DNA of 64,000 nucleotides from Massilia soli. GTDB lineage: Bacteria > Pseudomonadota > Gammaproteobacteria > Burkholderiales > Burkholderiaceae_D. Each line of letters starts with the position of its first letter. Position 1 is the first letter of the stretch. Positions 42,486 to 49,345 of the stretch are shown one piece after another. The translations under genes and the position numbers were made by a program. The stretch covers positions 496,001-560,000 of the forward strand of contig NZ_JAFBIL020000001.1 in assembly GCF_016809835.1 (NCBI RefSeq), given 5' to 3'. The notes beneath the pieces are model-generated. The model did no database searches and was not told the origin of the DNA. It saw nothing but the letters and a program-made list of their open reading frames with translations.

Positions 42486-43046
42486 GTGACCTATCAAGAA
42501 CAGCAAGCAGCCGAACCGGCGCCGCACAACCAGATCAGCGCGCGCGGCGCCGCACGCCGCCGCTTCGCCCGTGCCGGTGTCGGCGCGTCCGCCGCCCTGG
42601 TCACCATTTCCAGCAAGGCGGGCATGGCGGTGGATATCTGCACCGCGCCGTCGGGCTCGCTTTCGGGCGGATTGCAAAGCCAGAAGCCGGGCGAGGTCAT
42701 CGCCTGCGAAGGACGCTCCCCCGGCTACTGGAAGAACCATGCAGGCTGGCCGACCGACCGCGCCATGACGTTCGGCACGATCTTCTCGTGCAGCACCAGT
42801 TCGAAATACCACGCCTGCACGCTGGCCGACATGCTCGTCCCCAAGCGCTGGGACCGCAACGGCATCGGCCGCCACATGGTCGCCACTTACCTCAACATCA
42901 TGTCCGGCAAGATCGGATTCCTGACCGTTCCCGCGCTGCAGGAGATCTGGAACGACATCAGCCGCCGCGGCGTGTACAACCCGACCGCCGGCGTCAACTG
43001 GTATGCCCAGGATGTCGTCGACTACCTCCAGGGTACGATGGGCTGA
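42486..43046 (+). CDS. Putative exported Cys-containing protein, candidate substrate of the HprK-related cassette
   Basis: The 186-residue protein starts at GTG 42486 with GAGG seven bases upstream. The first 20 residues are polar, followed by AARRRFARAGVGASAALVTI, an Arg-rich stretch and hydrophobic segment that resembles a Tat signal without the exact consensus. The rest has four Cys residues (ICTAPS, IACEG, FSCSTS, HACTL), a GRSPGYWKNHAGWP motif found in various secreted proteins, and a C-terminal helix-rich part. Function is unknown. It lies directly before the PqqD-like and kinase genes on the same strand, so it is a plausible target of them, by position only. Confidence 0.7.
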   Translation: MTYQEQQAAEPAPHNQISARGAARRRFARAGVGASAALVTISSKAGMAVDICTAPSGSLSGGLQSQKPGEVIACEGRSPGYWKNHAGWPTDRAMTFGTIFSCSTSSKYHACTLADMLVPKRWDRNGIGRHMVATYLNIMSGKIGFLTVPALQEIWNDISRRGVYNPTAGVNWYAQDVVDYLQGTMG

Positions 43047-43053
43047 GCGGTAC

Positions 43054-43335
43054 GTGAACAACTGCAGCTGGCGGGTGGTGCCCGGACAGGCTTTGCGCCA
43101 GCGGGGCTGGGATGACGATTACCTGGTCTTCAACAACCTGTCGGGCGACACCCATTTACTCGACGGCGGCGCCATGCAGCTATTGCTGGCCGTTGCCCAA
43201 TCCCCCGGTAGCGCCGCTTCGCTGGCCGAACGCCTGCGCCTGGCGCTCGGACTCGACCAGCAGGAAATCGACGAAATCCCCGCCATGCTCGACGAGCTGC
43301 GCGCGCTTGCGCTGATCGAGCACACCCCATGCTGA
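43054..43335 (+). CDS. PqqD-like peptide-binding protein, HPr-rel-A system
   Basis: This 93-residue protein begins with NCSWRVVPGQALRQRGWDDD and continues YLVFNNLSGDTHLLDGGAMQ, the winged-helix pattern of PqqD/RRE domains, with a helical C-terminal half. PqqD-like proteins bind precursor or substrate peptides and present them to modifying enzymes. The start at GTG 43054, 7 bp after the preceding stop, is a best guess. It overlaps the kinase start by 7 bp. The family is the HPr-rel-A PqqD type (TIGR04353-like) by my recollection. Confidence 0.78.
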   Translation: MNNCSWRVVPGQALRQRGWDDDYLVFNNLSGDTHLLDGGAMQLLLAVAQSPGSAASLAERLRLALGLDQQEIDEIPAMLDELRALALIEHTPC

Positions 43336-44246
43336 CCGTGGCGTCGCTGACCCGCGCCGAACTGGGCAAACGCATGGCCGGACCCGGCCTGCGCCTGCAG
43401 ACCGGCGCCTTCATCACGCAGGTGCGCACCCCGATTGCCAGCGTGGCCGACGGCATCGCCCTGCTGTACGCCGATTATCCGCTGCGCGACGACGCGCAGT
43501 TCGCCGACTTTCATATCGCACTGTCGCGCCCGCCCGGGCTGCGGCGCTGGTTCCGCCCGCAAGTCAGGTTCGAATACGATGGCGGCTCGATGTTTCGCCC
43601 CTTGCCGCTCGACCAGGCGTTCCCGATGTTCGAGTGGGGCCTGAACTGGTGCATCTCGAGCCGCGCCCACAGCTATCTGGTGATCCACGCGGCGGTGGTG
43701 GAGAAGGACGGCCGCGCCGTGATCCTGCCGGCCCCGCCCGGTTCCGGCAAGAGCACCTTGTGCGCCGCGCTGATCCACCACGGCTGGCGCCTGCTGTCCG
43801 ACGAGCTGGCCATGATCAGGCTGCGCGACGGCCTGATTGAACCGCTGCCGCGCCCGGTCAGCCTGAAAAACGCCTCGATCGGCATCATCCGCGAGTATGT
43901 CCGCGGCACCGTGTTCAGCCGCCTGGTCCACGATACCGTCAAGGGCACGGTCGCGCACCTGAAAGCGCCCGGCGCCAGCGTGGCGCGCGCCGCCGAGACC
44001 GCCCGCCCCGCATGGGTGGTTTTTCCGAAATACGAGGCCGGGACTGCGGCCGTGCTCGCGCCGCTCGCCAAGGCTGGCGCGTTCATGCAGCTGGCGGCCA
44101 ACTCGTTCAATTACACGGTGCTGGGCCAGGCCGGCTTCGACGCGCTTGGCGACGTGATCGACCAGAGCGCCTGCTACAGCTTCACCTATAGCGCGCTGGA
44201 CGATGCGATCGCCACGTTCGCCCGGCTGGCGCAGGATCCCGCATGA
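43329..44246 (+). CDS. HprK-related kinase A
   Basis: The 305-residue protein resembles the C-terminal catalytic domain of HPr kinase/phosphorylase. The P-loop is APPGSGKSTLCAAL with Lys141, followed by WRLLSDELAMIRL, which carries acidic residues equivalent to the catalytic/Mg site. The N-terminal half is specific to this family. Its substrate is unlikely to be HPr, since no phosphotransferase genes are near; a protein or peptide presented by the PqqD-like partner is more plausible. Related kinases in lasso-peptide clusters phosphorylate the peptide; this is an analogy only. It overlaps the next gene as ATGA. Confidence 0.85.
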   Translation: MLTVASLTRAELGKRMAGPGLRLQTGAFITQVRTPIASVADGIALLYADYPLRDDAQFADFHIALSRPPGLRRWFRPQVRFEYDGGSMFRPLPLDQAFPMFEWGLNWCISSRAHSYLVIHAAVVEKDGRAVILPAPPGSGKSTLCAALIHHGWRLLSDELAMIRLRDGLIEPLPRPVSLKNASIGIIREYVRGTVFSRLVHDTVKGTVAHLKAPGASVARAAETARPAWVVFPKYEAGTAAVLAPLAKAGAFMQLAANSFNYTVLGQAGFDALGDVIDQSACYSFTYSALDDAIATFARLAQDPA

Positions 44247-45316
44247 GCGGCGCGCCTTTGCTGATCGCGGTGTTGCGCCAGCCGGCGCTGATGGCCGGCC
44301 TCGGGCTTGCCGACTGGGACCTGCTGCTGCGCCAGGCCGGCAGCGCGCGCCTGGTCGGCAGGCTGCGCAGCCTGCTGACCGAGCGCAGCCTGCTCGACAC
44401 GGTGCCGCCGCAGCCGCGCACTCACCTCGACTGGGCCGCGACGCTGGCGCTGCGCCACCGCCGCGCGGTGCATTGGGAAGTCGAACAGATCCGCCGCGCG
44501 CTGTCCGGGCTCAGCCTGCGGCCGGTGCTGCTCAAGGGCGCCGCCTACGCGGTGGCCGGCTTGCCGCCTGCCGACGGAAGGATGTTTTCCGACATCGATA
44601 TCCTGGTGCCCAAGCCGATGCTCGATGAAGTCGAGGCCGCATTAATGATGCACGGCTGGGTCGGCACCCACACCGACGCCTACGACCAGCGCTATTACCG
44701 CGAGTGGATGCACGAACTGCCGCCGATGCAGAATATCAAGCGCGATACCCTGATCGATGTGCATCACGCGATCTTGCCGGAGACGGCGCGCGCGCGGCCC
44801 GATCCAGCCAGGCTGCGCGCCGCGGCAGTGGCAATCGATGGCGAACCGGGATTCCTGACGCTGGCCCCCGCCGACATGGTGCTGCACAGCACCACCCACC
44901 TGTTCTACGGCGAATTCGAGCACGGCCTGCGCGACCTGGTCGACATCGAGCGCCTGCTGCGCCACTTCTCGGCTGACCCGGCGTTCTGGGACGGCCTGGT
45001 GGCGCGGGCGCGCGAGCTGGAGCTTGGGCGGCCGCTATTCTATGCGCTGCGCTGGGCGGACCGCCTGCTGGGCGCCGCGGTGCCCGGGCACGTCATGGAA
45101 AACAGCAGGCTGGACGCGCCCAACCGGCTCGTGCTGGGGGCGATGGACTGGCTGCTTGGCCACGCCATGCTGCCCGCGCATCCCAGCATCGACCGGCCCG
45201 CAACCGCGCCGGCCCGGCTGATGCTGTACATTCGCGCCAACTGGCTGCGGATGCCGCCGCTGTTGCTGGCGCGCCACCTGTTCCACAAAGCCTTCCTCTC
45301 GCCGAAAACCGCCTGA
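44243..45316 (+). CDS. Nucleotidyltransferase-family protein (NTP_transf_5 type), HPr-rel-A cassette
   Basis: The 357-residue protein has the reduced nucleotidyltransferase signature: PVLLKGAAYAVAGLP then GRMFSDIDILVPKPMLDEVE, with DxD acidic residues about residue 117. The C-terminal half is helical, with HSTTHLFYGEFEHGLRDLVD. Members of this family often accompany HprK-like kinases and PqqD-like proteins in RiPP-like or HPr-rel-A cassettes, but the reaction is unknown. It overlaps the kinase gene by 4 bp and is followed by two plus-strand terminator-like hairpins. Confidence 0.82.
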   Translation: MSGAPLLIAVLRQPALMAGLGLADWDLLLRQAGSARLVGRLRSLLTERSLLDTVPPQPRTHLDWAATLALRHRRAVHWEVEQIRRALSGLSLRPVLLKGAAYAVAGLPPADGRMFSDIDILVPKPMLDEVEAALMMHGWVGTHTDAYDQRYYREWMHELPPMQNIKRDTLIDVHHAILPETARARPDPARLRAAAVAIDGEPGFLTLAPADMVLHSTTHLFYGEFEHGLRDLVDIERLLRHFSADPAFWDGLVARARELELGRPLFYALRWADRLLGAAVPGHVMENSRLDAPNRLVLGAMDWLLGHAMLPAHPSIDRPATAPARLMLYIRANWLRMPPLLLARHLFHKAFLSPKTA

Positions 45317-45327
45317 TCTGTGGCGCG

Positions 45328-45362
45328 AAGCGCAACAAGCGCGCCGCGGTGCGCTTTTCTTT
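45328..45362 (+). terminator. Candidate terminator after the HPr-rel-A cassette
   Basis: AAGCGCA and TGCGCTT form a 7-bp stem around a 15-nt GC-rich loop, followed by TTCTTT, 12 bp after the stop codon. Confidence 0.45.
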
Positions 45363-45449: not shown

Positions 45450-46307
45450 TTATGCTTTTTTGTTGCGGCGGGCGAATGCTACACCAGCCAGTGCCAGGCC
45501 GAACAGTGCCAGGCTGCCTGGCTCTGGTACTTCGCCTTCGATTGGCTCAAACGAGGTGTTACCCGAACCGTCGATGGTGATGTCGGTGGTATTAGCGAAC
45601 GGGTTACCCTGTGGGATGCCGCGGATGATCGAGTTCACGCCGTTGATGTCGGTGTATGCCTGGCCGCTGGCGAATGCTTCGCCGCCGAAGAAGCCGTTCA
45701 TTGCGAATGCGGTAGCGATGACGTTGAAGTCGCCGTTAGCCAGGCCCTGGGCAATGTGGAAACCGCCTTCGCGCAACGAACCAGTCAGCACAGCGACGTC
45801 GTCAGCGTTACCGCCGCTAACTGCGATCGACTGGTCGGCGCCGCCAGCTTGTGCGTCGCTGATGATGGTGTCCATGTTACGGTCAACATACATCGTGTAG
45901 TTGAAGCTGGTGAAGGTGCCGTCGATCGTGCTGCCGCTCAGTGCGGTGTTGCCAGCTGCGCTGAACACGAAGTACATGCTGTAGTTGTTGTTCAGGCCCG
46001 TGCCGCCGACAACTGGACCGCCCAGCGAAGTGCGGAAGGTACCGAAGTAGCCGCCGCCGGTTTCGTTGAACGATGCGGTGGCCGCGCCGGTCTGGACTTG
46101 GTCAACTTCAGCTTTGTAGCTGAAATCGAGGAAGGTTGCGGTGCAGGTGCCGCCGCCGCAGCCGGCTTCGCCGATTGCGCTTGGGTTGATCGTGAACGAC
46201 TTCTCGTTGAACGCGATGCCTGGAACGTGGTCAGCCAGGGCTACCGAGCTCGACATTGCGAGGACTGCGCCGGCTACCAGCTTGCCGATTTTGTTGAATT
46301 TGATCAT
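45450..46307 (-). CDS. PEP-CTERM sorting-domain protein, likely exosortase A substrate
   Basis: The 285-residue protein has a signal peptide (VAGAVLAMSSSVALA) and a C-terminal PEP-CTERM signal: VPEPGSLALFGLALAGV then an ARRNKKA basic tail (from residue 260). The mature part is rich in Gly, Ser, Thr and Asn and looks like a beta-sandwich or fibre-like surface protein. It could belong to the flocculation-associated PepA group; that is weakly held. The ATG has GGAG upstream. A well-matched sigma54 promoter precedes it, so PrsK/PrsR control is likely. It is the only PEP-CTERM tail found in the window. Confidence 0.9.
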   Translation of the reverse strand: MIKFNKIGKLVAGAVLAMSSSVALADHVPGIAFNEKSFTINPSAIGEAGCGGGTCTATFLDFSYKAEVDQVQTGAATASFNETGGGYFGTFRTSLGGPVVGGTGLNNNYSMYFVFSAAGNTALSGSTIDGTFTSFNYTMYVDRNMDTIISDAQAGGADQSIAVSGGNADDVAVLTGSLREGGFHIAQGLANGDFNVIATAFAMNGFFGGEAFASGQAYTDINGVNSIIRGIPQGNPFANTTDITIDGSGNTSFEPIEGEVPEPGSLALFGLALAGVAFARRNKKA

Positions 46308-46517: not shown

Positions 46518-48527
46518 TTAGCCTCGTTTGCCCACGTCCGTGACCATCAGGTGCGCCAGGGCCGGACGGGTAGAACGCGCAGTGGCGCTCTTGCCCTGGC
46601 CAAGGCGTCCCATGAAGACCGGGAACCCTGGCTTGTCGCCCAATACGCGGTCGAGTTGCCCCGACAAGCCGACCGCCATCGCCGCCAGGCCGGCATTGGC
46701 GGTGAACGTTTTGCCGTTGCGTACATACGATGAAAAGATCAGCGGCGTCATTTCCGGCTGCATCACCAGGCCGAGCCTGGTCAGGGTCAGCCAGAAGCGC
46801 TGCATCGCGCGGCCGGCGGCAATATAGTCAGCCACCGAGCGCGGCTCGGCCTCGGCGCGGATCACGAAATGGGCGGCGCAGGCCAGGCCGGGCACCAGGT
46901 CCATCTGCAGGCGCGGCGCCCAGGTGCCCATCAGCGTATTCATCCGCTTAAGGCGGCCCCAGCTGACCATCGCCCACTTCATCAGGTGGATCGTCATGTT
47001 GTCCACGCCCAGCGCCTGGTCGGGCACGCCCCACTCCGACTGGACCTTGCCCCACTTGATGACGCGCTTGTGGACCTCGTAGGCTTCCGGCATCAGCAGG
47101 CGCAGCCGGGCGTTGTTGTACATCAGCTTAGCCGCATCCATGCGCGCCGGGCCTTCCAGCCACTGGACCTGGTAGCCCGGTCCGACCGACTGCGCCAGTT
47201 CCTGCTTCTCGTGCACGGTCAGCGCGCGCCGGCTCATCGGGCGGCGCTGCACGCTGCGCACCTCGATGGCGGGGATCAGCGCATCGGCGGCCATCCCCGG
47301 CTGCTCGGTGAAGCTGACATCGAACACCGGGTCCTTGTCGGTAGAGCCGTCGCAGCGCACCACCTCGGTTGCCAGGCCATGCGCGGTGGCGGCGATCGCC
47401 ATGGTTTCCAGCATCGCGCCGATCGCGATCTGGCTCGGCCAGCCCTCGAGGTCGTACACGCAGATGTCGCGGGTATCGCTGCAGTGCACCCGTACGCGCG
47501 CGCCGTCGAGAATTTCAAAGCGCCACGGCTGGTCGTTGTCGCCGCTGGGCGCCCAGCGGGCTTTGTCGAGGATGGCGACGATGCGCTCATGGCTGGAGGG
47601 AGTCATCATGTTCTTCGCTGGTGTAGGTGAGGCCTGGGGCGCGCCGGAAGGCGCGCCCTGGCGCAGCAGGCTGGCAAGGTGGCGGCGGCCGATCGCGATC
47701 GCCAGCCGCTGGATCGGGTTCTTGTTGCCGCCCGGACGCCAGGTGTGGGCCATCTTGTTGCGGAAGGGATCGAACTGCAGGCCGTGCGGGGCGGCCAGCA
47801 CCTTGCCGCGCTTGAGCAGGATCTTCAGGGCCTGGGTTGCGGCGATGCCGGCGCAGATCTGCACCGACATGATGGTCGACGGTCCGCGCCGCTCGGCAAA
47901 ATTGACGGCCGACGGATCGACCAGGTAAGCGCGGTGCAGGCCGGCTGGCGACAAGCCAACCAGGAAGCGGATCGCCTTTTCGTTTTCGGGCAGCTCGCCC
48001 CACTGGAAATATTCCTCGAACGTCATCTGGCCGGGCAGGAAGTTAAGCACCGCCGCGCCCATGCCCAGGGGCGCCACCGTGGTGGCCGGAATGCGCCGCT
48101 CAGCGCAGGCGGCAAAAGTCTTCTGACGGATGTCGAACACAAAAAAGTCGAGGCCATCGACGTACAGGTCGACGCCGTCCAGGAAGGCCGGCAGGCTGGC
48201 GGCATCGATCCCGTTGGGGAAGATGGTGATGTTCGCTTCGGGATTAATGTCGCGCACCATGTCGGCGATTACCTCGACCTTGGCCTTGCCGCGGGTCGAC
48301 ATCATGGCGCCCACCTGGCGGTTGAAGTTGGCGATGTCGTAAGTGTCGAAGTCGGCCAGGTGGAAGGTGCCGACCCCGAGGCGCGCCAGCGTCACCGCGT
48401 AGATGCCGCCGACCCCGCCCATGCCGGCGATCGCCACGCGCGCGCCGCGCAGTTTTTCCTGTTCCTCCCGCGTGACCCAGCCGATGTTGCGCGAGAAAGC
48501 TTCAGAATAGGAAAATGGATTGATCAT
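46518..48527 (-). CDS. ThiF/E1-like adenylyltransferase fused to a nitroreductase-like domain (Rv1355c-type)
   Basis: The 669-residue protein has two domains. The first (about 1-290) is a ThiF/MoeB-like E1 domain with the Rossmann motif VAIAGMGGVGGIYAVTLARL, ADFDTYDIANFNRQ and DGLDFF; the usual zinc-binding Cys pairs are not visible. The second (about 315-660) resembles nitroreductases, with ILDKARWAPSGDNDQPWRFE near its start and AAGRAMQRFWLTLTRLGLVM later. The combination resembles the Rv1355c family, whose reaction is not established. It follows a FeeM-like N-acyl amino acid synthase gene, suggesting adenylation and redox modification of its product. The ATG has no Shine-Dalgarno sequence and sits 4 nt after a terminator-like T-run. 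Confidence 0.85.
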   Translation of the reverse strand: MINPFSYSEAFSRNIGWVTREEQEKLRGARVAIAGMGGVGGIYAVTLARLGVGTFHLADFDTYDIANFNRQVGAMMSTRGKAKVEVIADMVRDINPEANITIFPNGIDAASLPAFLDGVDLYVDGLDFFVFDIRQKTFAACAERRIPATTVAPLGMGAAVLNFLPGQMTFEEYFQWGELPENEKAIRFLVGLSPAGLHRAYLVDPSAVNFAERRGPSTIMSVQICAGIAATQALKILLKRGKVLAAPHGLQFDPFRNKMAHTWRPGGNKNPIQRLAIAIGRRHLASLLRQGAPSGAPQASPTPAKNMMTPSSHERIVAILDKARWAPSGDNDQPWRFEILDGARVRVHCSDTRDICVYDLEGWPSQIAIGAMLETMAIAATAHGLATEVVRCDGSTDKDPVFDVSFTEQPGMAADALIPAIEVRSVQRRPMSRRALTVHEKQELAQSVGPGYQVQWLEGPARMDAAKLMYNNARLRLLMPEAYEVHKRVIKWGKVQSEWGVPDQALGVDNMTIHLMKWAMVSWGRLKRMNTLMGTWAPRLQMDLVPGLACAAHFVIRAEAEPRSVADYIAAGRAMQRFWLTLTRLGLVMQPEMTPLIFSSYVRNGKTFTANAGLAAMAVGLSGQLDRVLGDKPGFPVFMGRLGQGKSATARSTRPALAHLMVTDVGKRG

Positions 48528-48583: not shown

Positions 48584-49345
48584 TTAGCCGATGTTGAACA
48601 GGCGGTTGGCAATACCGATTTCTTCGCGCTTGGAGAAGAAATACGGATACAGCGAACGCTCGTTGCCAGGATGGTCGCTGGTGCCGCCCAGGCGCTCGAT
48701 CTCGTTGCCCATATGTTCAAGGCTCAGCCACAGCAGATAGGCCGGCGCGTCAACGCGCGGATTGCAGCGCACATCGGTCAGTGTCTTGAAGCCGAGCATG
48801 TGCTCGTAGTAGCGCCGATGGCGCGGATTGATCTCGATGAACGCGTCTGTGCACTGATACAGGTGGTGCGCGTAAATGTAGAGAATGTGAAACAAGGAGC
48901 CCAGCGCCATCTTCGAACGCACGGTCGGGTCGAAGGCCAGCTTGCTGATCTCGCACACCTTGGCGCCGCGCTGGCGGAACTGGTCGATCTGGTCGCGGAA
49001 CACTTCATCGGCGAGGATCCCGATGGCCGAGTCGATGCCGAGCGTGACCGTTCCGATGACGGCGCCCTTGTCCGAGGCCGACAATGTGATCCGGTTTGGA
49101 TTGTCGTCAACGCGATGACTTCCTGCATAGCCGCGCCAGGCATACATCTTATTGATGAGCATGCTTGCGTGATTTCGGCCTTCTTCAGTATCTGCTACGC
49201 GGATGCCGAAGGCTCTTTCGTTGATCGTCATCTCGCTGATGTTATCAGATGATTCTGAACGTGTCCCGTTGAGCTCGCTATCGTGCGCGCCCTGTCCTTC
49301 GGAGTCGAACCCGATCGTAATCAGCCCATCAAAGGTCTTTTCCAT
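48584..49345 (-). CDS. FeeM-like N-acyl amino acid synthase / PEP-CTERM-associated acyltransferase
   Basis: This 253-residue protein has a GNAT-like fold of the FeeM/autoinducer-synthase type. Features include FGIRVADTEEGRNHASMLIN, NRITLSASDKGAVIGTVTLG, KVCEISKLAFDPTVRSKMAL and AFIEINPRHRRYYEHMLGFK. Such enzymes join an acyl group from acyl-ACP to an amino acid, giving long-chain N-acyl amino acids; related proteins are annotated as exosortase-associated acyltransferases. The acyl carrier protein at 13579 could be the donor, but the fatty-acid one is equally likely. Its own sigma70-like promoter lies upstream. Confidence 0.82.
   Translation of the reverse strand: MEKTFDGLITIGFDSEGQGAHDSELNGTRSESSDNISEMTINERAFGIRVADTEEGRNHASMLINKMYAWRGYAGSHRVDDNPNRITLSASDKGAVIGTVTLGIDSAIGILADEVFRDQIDQFRQRGAKVCEISKLAFDPTVRSKMALGSLFHILYIYAHHLYQCTDAFIEINPRHRRYYEHMLGFKTLTDVRCNPRVDAPAYLLWLSLEHMGNEIERLGGTSDHPGNERSLYPYFFSKREEIGIANRLFNIG

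Follow-up and report, generated by a model that had tools for sequence, protein, structure and literature searches.

The first gene of a four-gene cassette in Massilia soli very probably encodes a dedicated client of the trio that follows it, a PqqD-like protein, an HprK-related kinase and a nucleotidyltransferase family protein, as judged from co-occurrence across genomes. By alignment, what is conserved in this client is a twin-arginine leader and a set of invariant serines, not its cysteines. The association and the motifs are direct observations on the genomes examined here. We consider it probable that gene 1 and its leader-sharing counterparts act as dedicated clients of HPr-rel-A systems, being guided by their leader, modified on serine and exported by Tat.

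The cassette lies in the window (the whole stretch of 64,000 nucleotides that was analysed) on the plus strand, and the four adjacent genes described in the first-pass annotation were all confirmed as open reading frames in place, three of them with a family over cut-off. Gene 1 (42486..43046, GTG start) encodes 186 amino acids. The PqqD-like protein (43054..43335) matches TIGR04353 with 57.8 bits against a cut-off of 35, and the kinase (43329..44246) matches TIGR04352 with 415.8 bits against 200, both in NCBIfam. The last gene (44243..45316) matches PF14907 in Pfam with 192.7 bits against 31.2. The most likely start of the PqqD-like gene, chosen from the list of open reading frames, is the GTG at 43054, 7 nt past the stop of gene 1. 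The tight packing of the last three genes that had been noticed earlier holds, with overlaps of 7 nt between the PqqD-like and kinase genes and 4 nt between the kinase and nucleotidyltransferase genes. The generic PqqD model PF05402 has no match in this genome. With TIGR04352 and TIGR04353 over cut-off and a PF14907 protein adjacent, the cassette is an HPr-rel-A system by NCBI's own models. The four-gene arrangement is far above chance; a search for related loci with the gene cluster found only two Massilia loci. A terminator-like hairpin (45337..45356, plus strand, a consensus match only) stands 3' of the last gene, in a region with nine such hairpins against 3.5 expected from shuffles. The cassette adjoins an XrtA/PEP-CTERM exopolysaccharide locus; gene 1, however, carries no PEP-CTERM sorting domain (NCBIfam and Pfam, E <= 1) and its leader is Tat-like.

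Gene 1 itself matches nothing in NCBIfam or Pfam at E <= 1, and only one row of its 38-row alignment gives a marginal Pfam match, to Glutenin_hmw. The Arg-rich leader and four cysteines described for it in the first-pass annotation are both present. The cysteines do not hold up as its hallmark and were rejected as the key feature, since one member of the same type (L011) lacks the N-terminal pair. Invariant in the 38 rows are two arginines, two serines and one asparagine. The arginines, R24 and R25, precede a short hydrophobic stretch within the leader part (residues 1-48, 42486..42629, its end estimated by eye) and are kept in 38/38 rows and in 97/99 and 98/99 members of a larger cluster. The serines, S56 and S60 (codons 42651..42665), are kept in all 99 gene-1 relatives of the cluster alignment and form the predicted modification site. 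They lie in a stretch of low confidence in the AlphaFold2 model that is probably flexible, ahead of a folded helical domain of the GYWKNH type (about residues 78-186, 42717..43043). Neither a fold search with this model nor a search of PDB sequences with the gene 1 profile gave a match in the PDB.

Of the 145 genomes in the family sample 38 encode gene 1, and each of these is one of the 39 genomes that hold the kinase; by coordinates gene 1 adjoins the kinase in 38/38. The 39th kinase genome has a divergent copy of gene 1 (E 2.7e-12). We looked for a wide occurrence of gene 1 apart from the trio and did not encounter it. Of the 40 genomes of the order sample that match the gene-1 profile, 38 have a kinase over cut-off, four of these 38 matching chiefly through the leader, and the other two show only a GYWKNH-like stretch within open reading frames of 1046 and 1301 amino acids. 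Over the family, order, class and phylum samples the kinase exceeds its cut-off in 177 genomes, and 176 kinase loci from these samples were analysed. G952 and G968, genomes over the cut-off with a fragmentary kinase, were left out. Kinase matches below cut-off were left aside, in one genome of the family and 36 of the order sample and, at E <= 1e-20, in 11 genomes of the class and three of the phylum sample. The association thus bears out the idea that gene 1 occupies the place of a precursor or client, but the leader is common to several client types of unrelated sequence, of which gene 1 represents one.

This common leader reads roughly RRxLLKG.....Pxx(L/I/V)T(L/V)xSxxAxA. With a leader HMM, a neighbour carrying a similar twin-arginine leader was found at 169 of the 176 kinase loci; six of the remaining seven genomes encode a leader protein elsewhere, and the seventh locus ends at a contig edge. 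Clients score at least 12.9 bits and the second-best open reading frame of any locus at most 11.2, the training set of the model being 150 leaders of these same loci. An earlier picking of leaders by regular expression chose wrong open reading frames in some loci and was superseded by the HMM; for this reason 18 loci were excluded from its training. In a whole-genome control the top leader match lies at the cassette in 38/40 cassette genomes (the best match is elsewhere in G252 and G430), and a match with E < 1e-5 is present in 34/40 cassette genomes versus 0/40 genomes without an over-cut-off kinase. The model is weaker once client types are withheld from training: it ranks the client first in 76/106 type A loci (the type of gene 1) when trained on the others, in 58/63 non-A loci when trained on type A, and in only 3/9 sphingomonad loci when trained on the rest.

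The six genomes with a client-less kinase neighbourhood provide a forward test, their clients being absent from the training of the leader profile. All six have a leader match elsewhere (E 1.4e-14 to 4.8e-8), each with C-x-x-S near the C-terminus, and a PqqD gene stands alongside in 4/6. Client and PqqD genes remain paired apart from the kinase at L204, L137, L282, L283, L284 and L286. These results bear on whether gene 1 might be a mere passenger of the exopolysaccharide locus, functionally unlinked to the trio. The position of the cassette beside the XrtA locus would fit such a passenger, as would the exosortase found in 40/40 cassette genomes tested. A passenger would hardly be expected to turn up unlinked, with the same leader, in 6/6 testable genomes that lack a client beside their kinase, nor to move as a pair with PqqD, and we regard this explanation as extremely unlikely.

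While the leader of the predicted clients is common, the body is not. Of the 169 clients, 100 group with gene 1 in the GYWKNH type, and the others have mostly unrelated bodies, down to 12-20 residues past the leader; two natural minimal clients (L185 and L214) are about 74 and 82 residues long. Six divergent singletons (L189, L205, L239, L240, L241 and L264, of which L240 is doubtful) were taken by eye as A-like and enter the motif, leave-type-out and active-site counts. Ten clients of different types gave no NCBIfam family over cut-off (nothing for eight, two far below) and nothing in Pfam for nine, the tenth (L125) staying below cut-off. A conserved leader, a variable body and a PqqD-type binder encoded alongside make up a combination of the RiPP type.

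C-x-x-S occurs within the last 40 residues in 59/69 non-A clients, against 8.1 in shuffles; it is absent in 10/69, and the looser [CA]-hydrophobic-x-S in 4/69. Clients within a cluster are related and these counts are therefore not independent. In type A the pattern S-x-x-x-S, counted at a fixed offset, is found in 99/106, where 45 would be expected; a more stringent version that includes Cys is found in 8/106 against 2.5, which is not significant as shuffles reach 10. This offset is badly placed, so that the conservation of the site in type A rests on the cluster alignment. In type B the C-terminal motif retains both its Cys and its Ser in 37/37, and a leader Pro, a leader Thr and another Cys are equally constant; invariance alone therefore does not mark a modified site, and the invariant serines could be structural. 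The Cys that accompanies Ser in the motif raises the idea that the serine phosphate serves as a leaving group, giving dehydroalanine and then, by attack of the C-x-x-S cysteine, a lanthipeptide-like thioether ring. The invariant type B motif and the Cys/Ser pair in all six unlinked clients agree with this. We have demoted the lanthionine reading, however, since the site is devoid of Cys in types C and E; the type A protein without its N-terminal Cys pair also speaks against it, and the window proteins scanned included no recognisable lyase or cyclase. A thioether ring is thus very unlikely.

The kinase has its His, Gly-Lys-Thr and Asp-Glu motifs in 176/176 loci. A nucleotidyltransferase is held by 158 of the 176 loci, some of which end too early, and its D-x-D is conserved in 157/158; from this constancy we read it as a probable component of HPr-rel-A. 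The kinase shares the fold group and the His, P-loop and Asp region with HprK/P, and its predicted structure resembles PEPCK and HprK, but it stays far below the HprK family models (TIGR00679, 18 of 240 bits; PF07475, 15.1 of 33.3) and has Asp-Glu where HprK has Asp-Asp. HprK is bifunctional. An HPr-like switch could be envisaged, in which the kinase reversibly phosphorylates the client or another protein, controls exopolysaccharide or surface traits and allows export in one state only. Fold and weak sequence match do place the kinase in an HprK/PEPCK-like group. However, Glu takes the place of HprK's second catalytic Asp, an exported client would be an odd target for cytoplasmic control, and the nucleotidyltransferase would be unexplained. 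We consider such a switch quite unlikely.

The trio might alternatively act in Tat proofreading or escort, with the PqqD-like protein and the kinase binding the leader and timing export, and no lasting modification of the mature client. The one element common to the clients is indeed the Tat-like leader, and the client/PqqD pairing persists apart from the kinase. Escort alone would leave unexplained two enzymes with conserved active-site motifs, serines outside the leader that are as constant as the twin arginines, and clients with only 12-20 residues past the leader; it appears unlikely to us.

For leader-guided modification, whose chemistry and export we infer, the following route can be proposed. 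The client would be synthesised with its Tat-type leader, the conserved part of its sequence. The PqqD-like protein, as suggested by its family and gene linkage, would bind the leader and present the client to the kinase, which may then phosphorylate an invariant serine beyond the leader: S56, S60 or both in gene 1, and for most other types the C-x-x-S serine. By analogy with PsmN, the PF14907 enzyme could attach a nucleotidyl group or a sugar to this phosphoserine. Tat would finally export the product, which, given the leader and the co-occurrence with exosortase, might be active at the surface or in the matrix of exopolysaccharide producers. A Tat leader would fit this order better than a Sec leader, because the steps that need ATP must precede export.

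A close parallel is lasso peptide tailoring by PadeK/ThcoK and PsmK/PsmN, where an HprK-like kinase and a nucleotidyltransferase homologue act on a precursor Ser (PMC9266682); a leader-bearing precursor and a PqqD-type binding domain are also alike. For PsmN the same review leaves open the addition of hexose by a host enzyme (PMC9266682). Unlike lasso precursors, the clients here are mostly folded bodies behind a Tat-like leader. In contrast to the C-terminal Ser acceptor of lasso peptides, the predicted Ser is the last residue in only one of the 65 motif-bearing non-A clients; gene 1 ends in Gly, and in type A the invariant Ser lies near the mature N-terminus. No lasso B or C processing enzyme was recognised among the ten window proteins scanned. 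We put forward, as a tentative and rather less likely extension, that HPr-rel-A might represent leader-guided modification of a new class. Here the Tat signal would double as the recognition leader, and a single kinase and a single transferase would place a phospho-linked nucleotide or sugar on a serine of unrelated secreted proteins, or of peptides that extend only 12-20 residues past the leader, possibly tying them to exopolysaccharide from the neighbouring XrtA locus.

The NCBIfam entries consulted for HPr-rel-A name the kinase and a 'peptide chaperone' only, and no description of its clients was found in the open-access literature searched; clients, leader and serine motif are added here. 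A named cassette for which no described target was found thereby gains a putative client in nearly every genome examined. Alongside it come a putative recognition leader, a serine as candidate modification site and minimal substrates that occur naturally. With these in hand, target and site are directly testable. If the proposal is true, serine phosphorylation and tailoring of the lasso type would reach exported proteins and be linked to the biology of exosortases and exopolysaccharides. In two named plasmid records, from a search of 16 records that served only for finding named examples, the client gene is annotated as 'hypothetical protein'.

The four plus-strand genes described in the first-pass annotation are all present. 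Gene 1, an ORF (42486-43046, +) for a GYWKNH-type protein with a twin-arginine leader, is followed by genes for a PqqD-like protein (43054-43335, +; GTG start inferred; TIGR04353, 57.8 bits, cut-off 35), an HprK-related kinase A (43329-44246, +; TIGR04352, 415.8 bits, cut-off 200) and a nucleotidyltransferase (44243-45316, +; PF14907, 192.7 bits, cut-off 31.2). NCBI's models already name the system, HPr-rel-A. Gene 1 has no NCBIfam or Pfam match at E ≤ 1; its closest named relatives come from Massilia agrisoli (76%) and M. cavernae (63%). Our search of the open-access literature, a scope outside which most subscription journals lie, found no paper on HPr-rel-A, HprK-related kinase or GYWKNH, and none for TIGR04352/TIGR04353/PF14907, PEP-CTERM with HPr kinase, or PqqD with exosortase. 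Broader queries on lasso peptides, RRE and PqqD domains, Tat, kinases and nucleotidyltransferases led to work on lasso peptides, lanthipeptides, other RiPPs and unrelated subjects. Upstream of the cassette lies an XrtA/PEP-CTERM exopolysaccharide export protein (TIGR03027, above cut-off). Downstream follow a convergent PEP-CTERM protein (45450-46307, -; flocculation-associated PepA model, 117.5 bits, cut-off 80), a ThiF/nitroreductase-like protein of 669 aa (46518-48527, -), a FeeM-like N-acyl amino acid synthase (48584-49345, -) and PrsT; an exosortase is found about 11 kb from the cassette.

The first-pass annotation had proposed checking whether homologs of gene 1 always accompany the trio. 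For the kinase this held within the same family: among 145 genomes gene 1 occurs in 38 and the kinase above the TIGR04352 cut-off in 39 (the 40th match falls far short of it), and all 38 gene-1 genomes are among the 39. By coordinates, gene 1 lies at most about half a kilobase from the kinase in 38/38. The 39th genome (G119) carries a divergent gene 1 at the same position (profile match E 2.7e-12). TIGR04353 matches in 40 of the 145, above cut-off in 38. In the order sample (300 genomes; kinase above cut-off in 50, gene-1 profile matches in 40) 38 of the 40 matched genomes have the kinase, four of them (G149, G158, G172, G205) matching mainly via the leader; the other two, G249 and G323, lack an above-cut-off kinase. 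The matches in these two are GYWKNH-like stretches (G249:C33:300495-300815, G323:C43:53895-54215) within a 1046-aa and a 1301-aa ORF; a similar stretch was seen in an ORF of 2888 aa (G230:C22:153562-153858). None of the three adjoins an HprK-related kinase A, which suggests reuse of the gene-1 domain in large proteins. The remaining 12 order genomes, with kinase and without gene-1 profile match, all have, beside the trio, a protein whose RR leader resembles that of gene 1; one body (locus L123) is A-like, that is, resembles gene 1 (type A), and the other 11 are different.

We added samples of the class (369 genomes, 41 above cut-off) and the phylum (398 genomes, 61 above cut-off); all samples come from the phylum of Massilia soli. 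We count 177 distinct above-cut-off genomes across the four samples; leaving out two with kinase fragments and adding a named Massilia locus (L033) agrees with the 176 distinct kinase sequences counted by script. The class sample also contains HprK-like kinases at about 99-104 bits, below the cut-off (e.g. G576, G688, G783, G509, G638), which may represent a sister system. Using 150 leaders taken from the same kinase loci, we trained an HMM; it found a client at ≥ 12.9 bits in 169/176 loci, and no second ORF in any locus scored above 11.2. The client is on the kinase strand in 168 of the 169. In locus L204 client and PqqD are both on the strand opposite the kinase, and L137 (from G149) is arranged as kinase, nucleotidyltransferase, client, PqqD; client and PqqD therefore tend to move as a pair. 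The PqqD model placed PqqD on the kinase strand in 163/176 loci. Six loci, all of family f189 (L226, L235, L237, L239, L240, L241), have a client and no recognised PqqD; in four of them that place is taken by a small ORF that matches weakly. Between client and kinase, L226, L235, L237 and L239 carry a small gene that is at best a very divergent PqqD-like ORF.

Three controls addressed whether the leader is simply any Tat signal. One left body types out of training: trained on type A, the model ranked the client first in 58/63 non-A loci, and trained on non-A in 76/106 A loci; without type B, one of the other bodies, the figure was 37/37, and with large clusters as training 23/23 of the small types. 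Without sphingomonads it was only 3/9, so that the sphingomonad leader is divergent. As a whole-genome control, a leader-only alignment of 64 rows was run on 40 cassette genomes and 40 without above-cut-off kinase. The best match lay at the cassette in 38/40 (the failures being G252 and G430) and E was below 1e-5 in 34/40, versus 0/40 without the kinase (best 7.3e-5). For the 18 cassette genomes that contributed no alignment row the values were 16/18 and 15/18. No second match in the 40 cassette genomes reached E 1e-4 (nearest 1.3e-4 and 1.6e-4), and hence each genome appears to have a single client. In seven of the 176 loci no client adjoins the kinase; L206, L207, L213, L229 and L238 have neither PqqD nor client nearby. 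In L218 the contig starts just upstream of PqqD, and the best leader match in that genome (7e-4) is a ferredoxin-like protein. The six other neighbour-less genomes, from which the profile holds zero rows, all have a strong leader match elsewhere (E 1.4e-14 to 4.8e-8), in five on another contig and in one 164 kb off. All six unlinked clients carry C-x-x-S close to the C-terminus, and a PqqD gene adjoins four.

The 169 bodies fall into groups of 100 (type A), 30, 9, 7 and 3, three pairs, and 14 singletons; by eye, six of the singletons were assigned to divergent type A. Among 99 distinct type A sequences two serines are invariant (99/99; S56 and S60 in gene 1), the twin arginines occur in 97 and 98 and one Asn in 98. 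In the AlphaFold2 model of gene 1, S56 and S60 fall within a stretch (53-65) with pLDDT under 50, ahead of a confident helical domain that has no match in PDB. In type B (37 sequences) an S-C-W-x-S motif close to the C-terminus keeps its Cys and its second Ser in 37/37; the twin arginines, a leader Pro, a leader Thr and another Cys are equally constant. The 69 non-A clients include the six unlinked ones and contain relatives, so that their counts are not independent; C-x-x-S lies within the last 40 residues in 59 (8.1 expected, at most 18 in 2000 shuffles) and [CA]-hydrophobic-x-S occurs in 65 (8.7 expected). The C-terminal motif recurs across several clusters between whose bodies no similarity was detected. 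The clients L185 (778-1008, +; about 74 aa) and L214 (ORF 821-1150, reverse complement; about 82 aa) consist of little more than the leader and a further 12 and 20 residues, respectively, ending in a C-x-x-S segment; a truncated gene or an assembly fault might account for their length. Another body (L125:6682-7128, -) is made of Gly/Asn/Gln repeats with a poly-Ser tail. Clients listed as 'hypothetical protein' also occur in plasmids of Vibrio alfacsensis and Sphingomonas parapaucimobilis; inspection by eye shows the RR leader in both, together with a type-A-like Ser-rich segment in one and C-x-x-S in the other. The client-kinase gap of the Vibrio plasmid (L292:4688-4973) holds no listed gene.

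PEPCK and HprK belong to one superfamily, and the kinase model (mean pLDDT 97.1) resembles both (PEPCK, E 5.5e-7; HprK 3tqf, 1.7e-4, and 1kkl, 7.7e-4). The kinase profile matches HprK 1jb1 (E 0.0019) with the His, GxGKS and Asp regions aligned. His, Gly-Lys-Thr and Asp-Glu are found in 176/176 kinases, and D-x-D in 157/158 nucleotidyltransferases, whose number is a lower bound since some loci are short. By these features both enzymes look active. In leaf order of the midpoint-rooted kinase tree, type A mainly occupies one part and B, C, E and the sphingomonads another; L125 sits among the A kinases and L214 among the B kinases. It thus seems that the bodies changed and the machinery was retained.

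We infer the functions of cassette and clients from sequence. A review (PMC9266682) reports that in a lasso peptide pathway a Ser is (poly)phosphorylated by the kinase PsmK and that PsmN, a nucleotidyltransferase homologue, accounts for one or two hexoses on that Ser, with a host glycosyltransferase as a possible alternative. By analogy we propose that PqqD would bind the client leader, a Ser would be phosphorylated, the PF14907 protein would elaborate the phosphorylated Ser, and Tat would export the product. As the ATP-dependent steps must precede export, a Tat rather than a Sec leader would be favoured. An exosortase was found in 40/40 cassette genomes, all from the order of Massilia soli, versus 12/40 without above-cut-off kinase, and the product therefore probably acts at the matrix or surface of exopolysaccharide producers.
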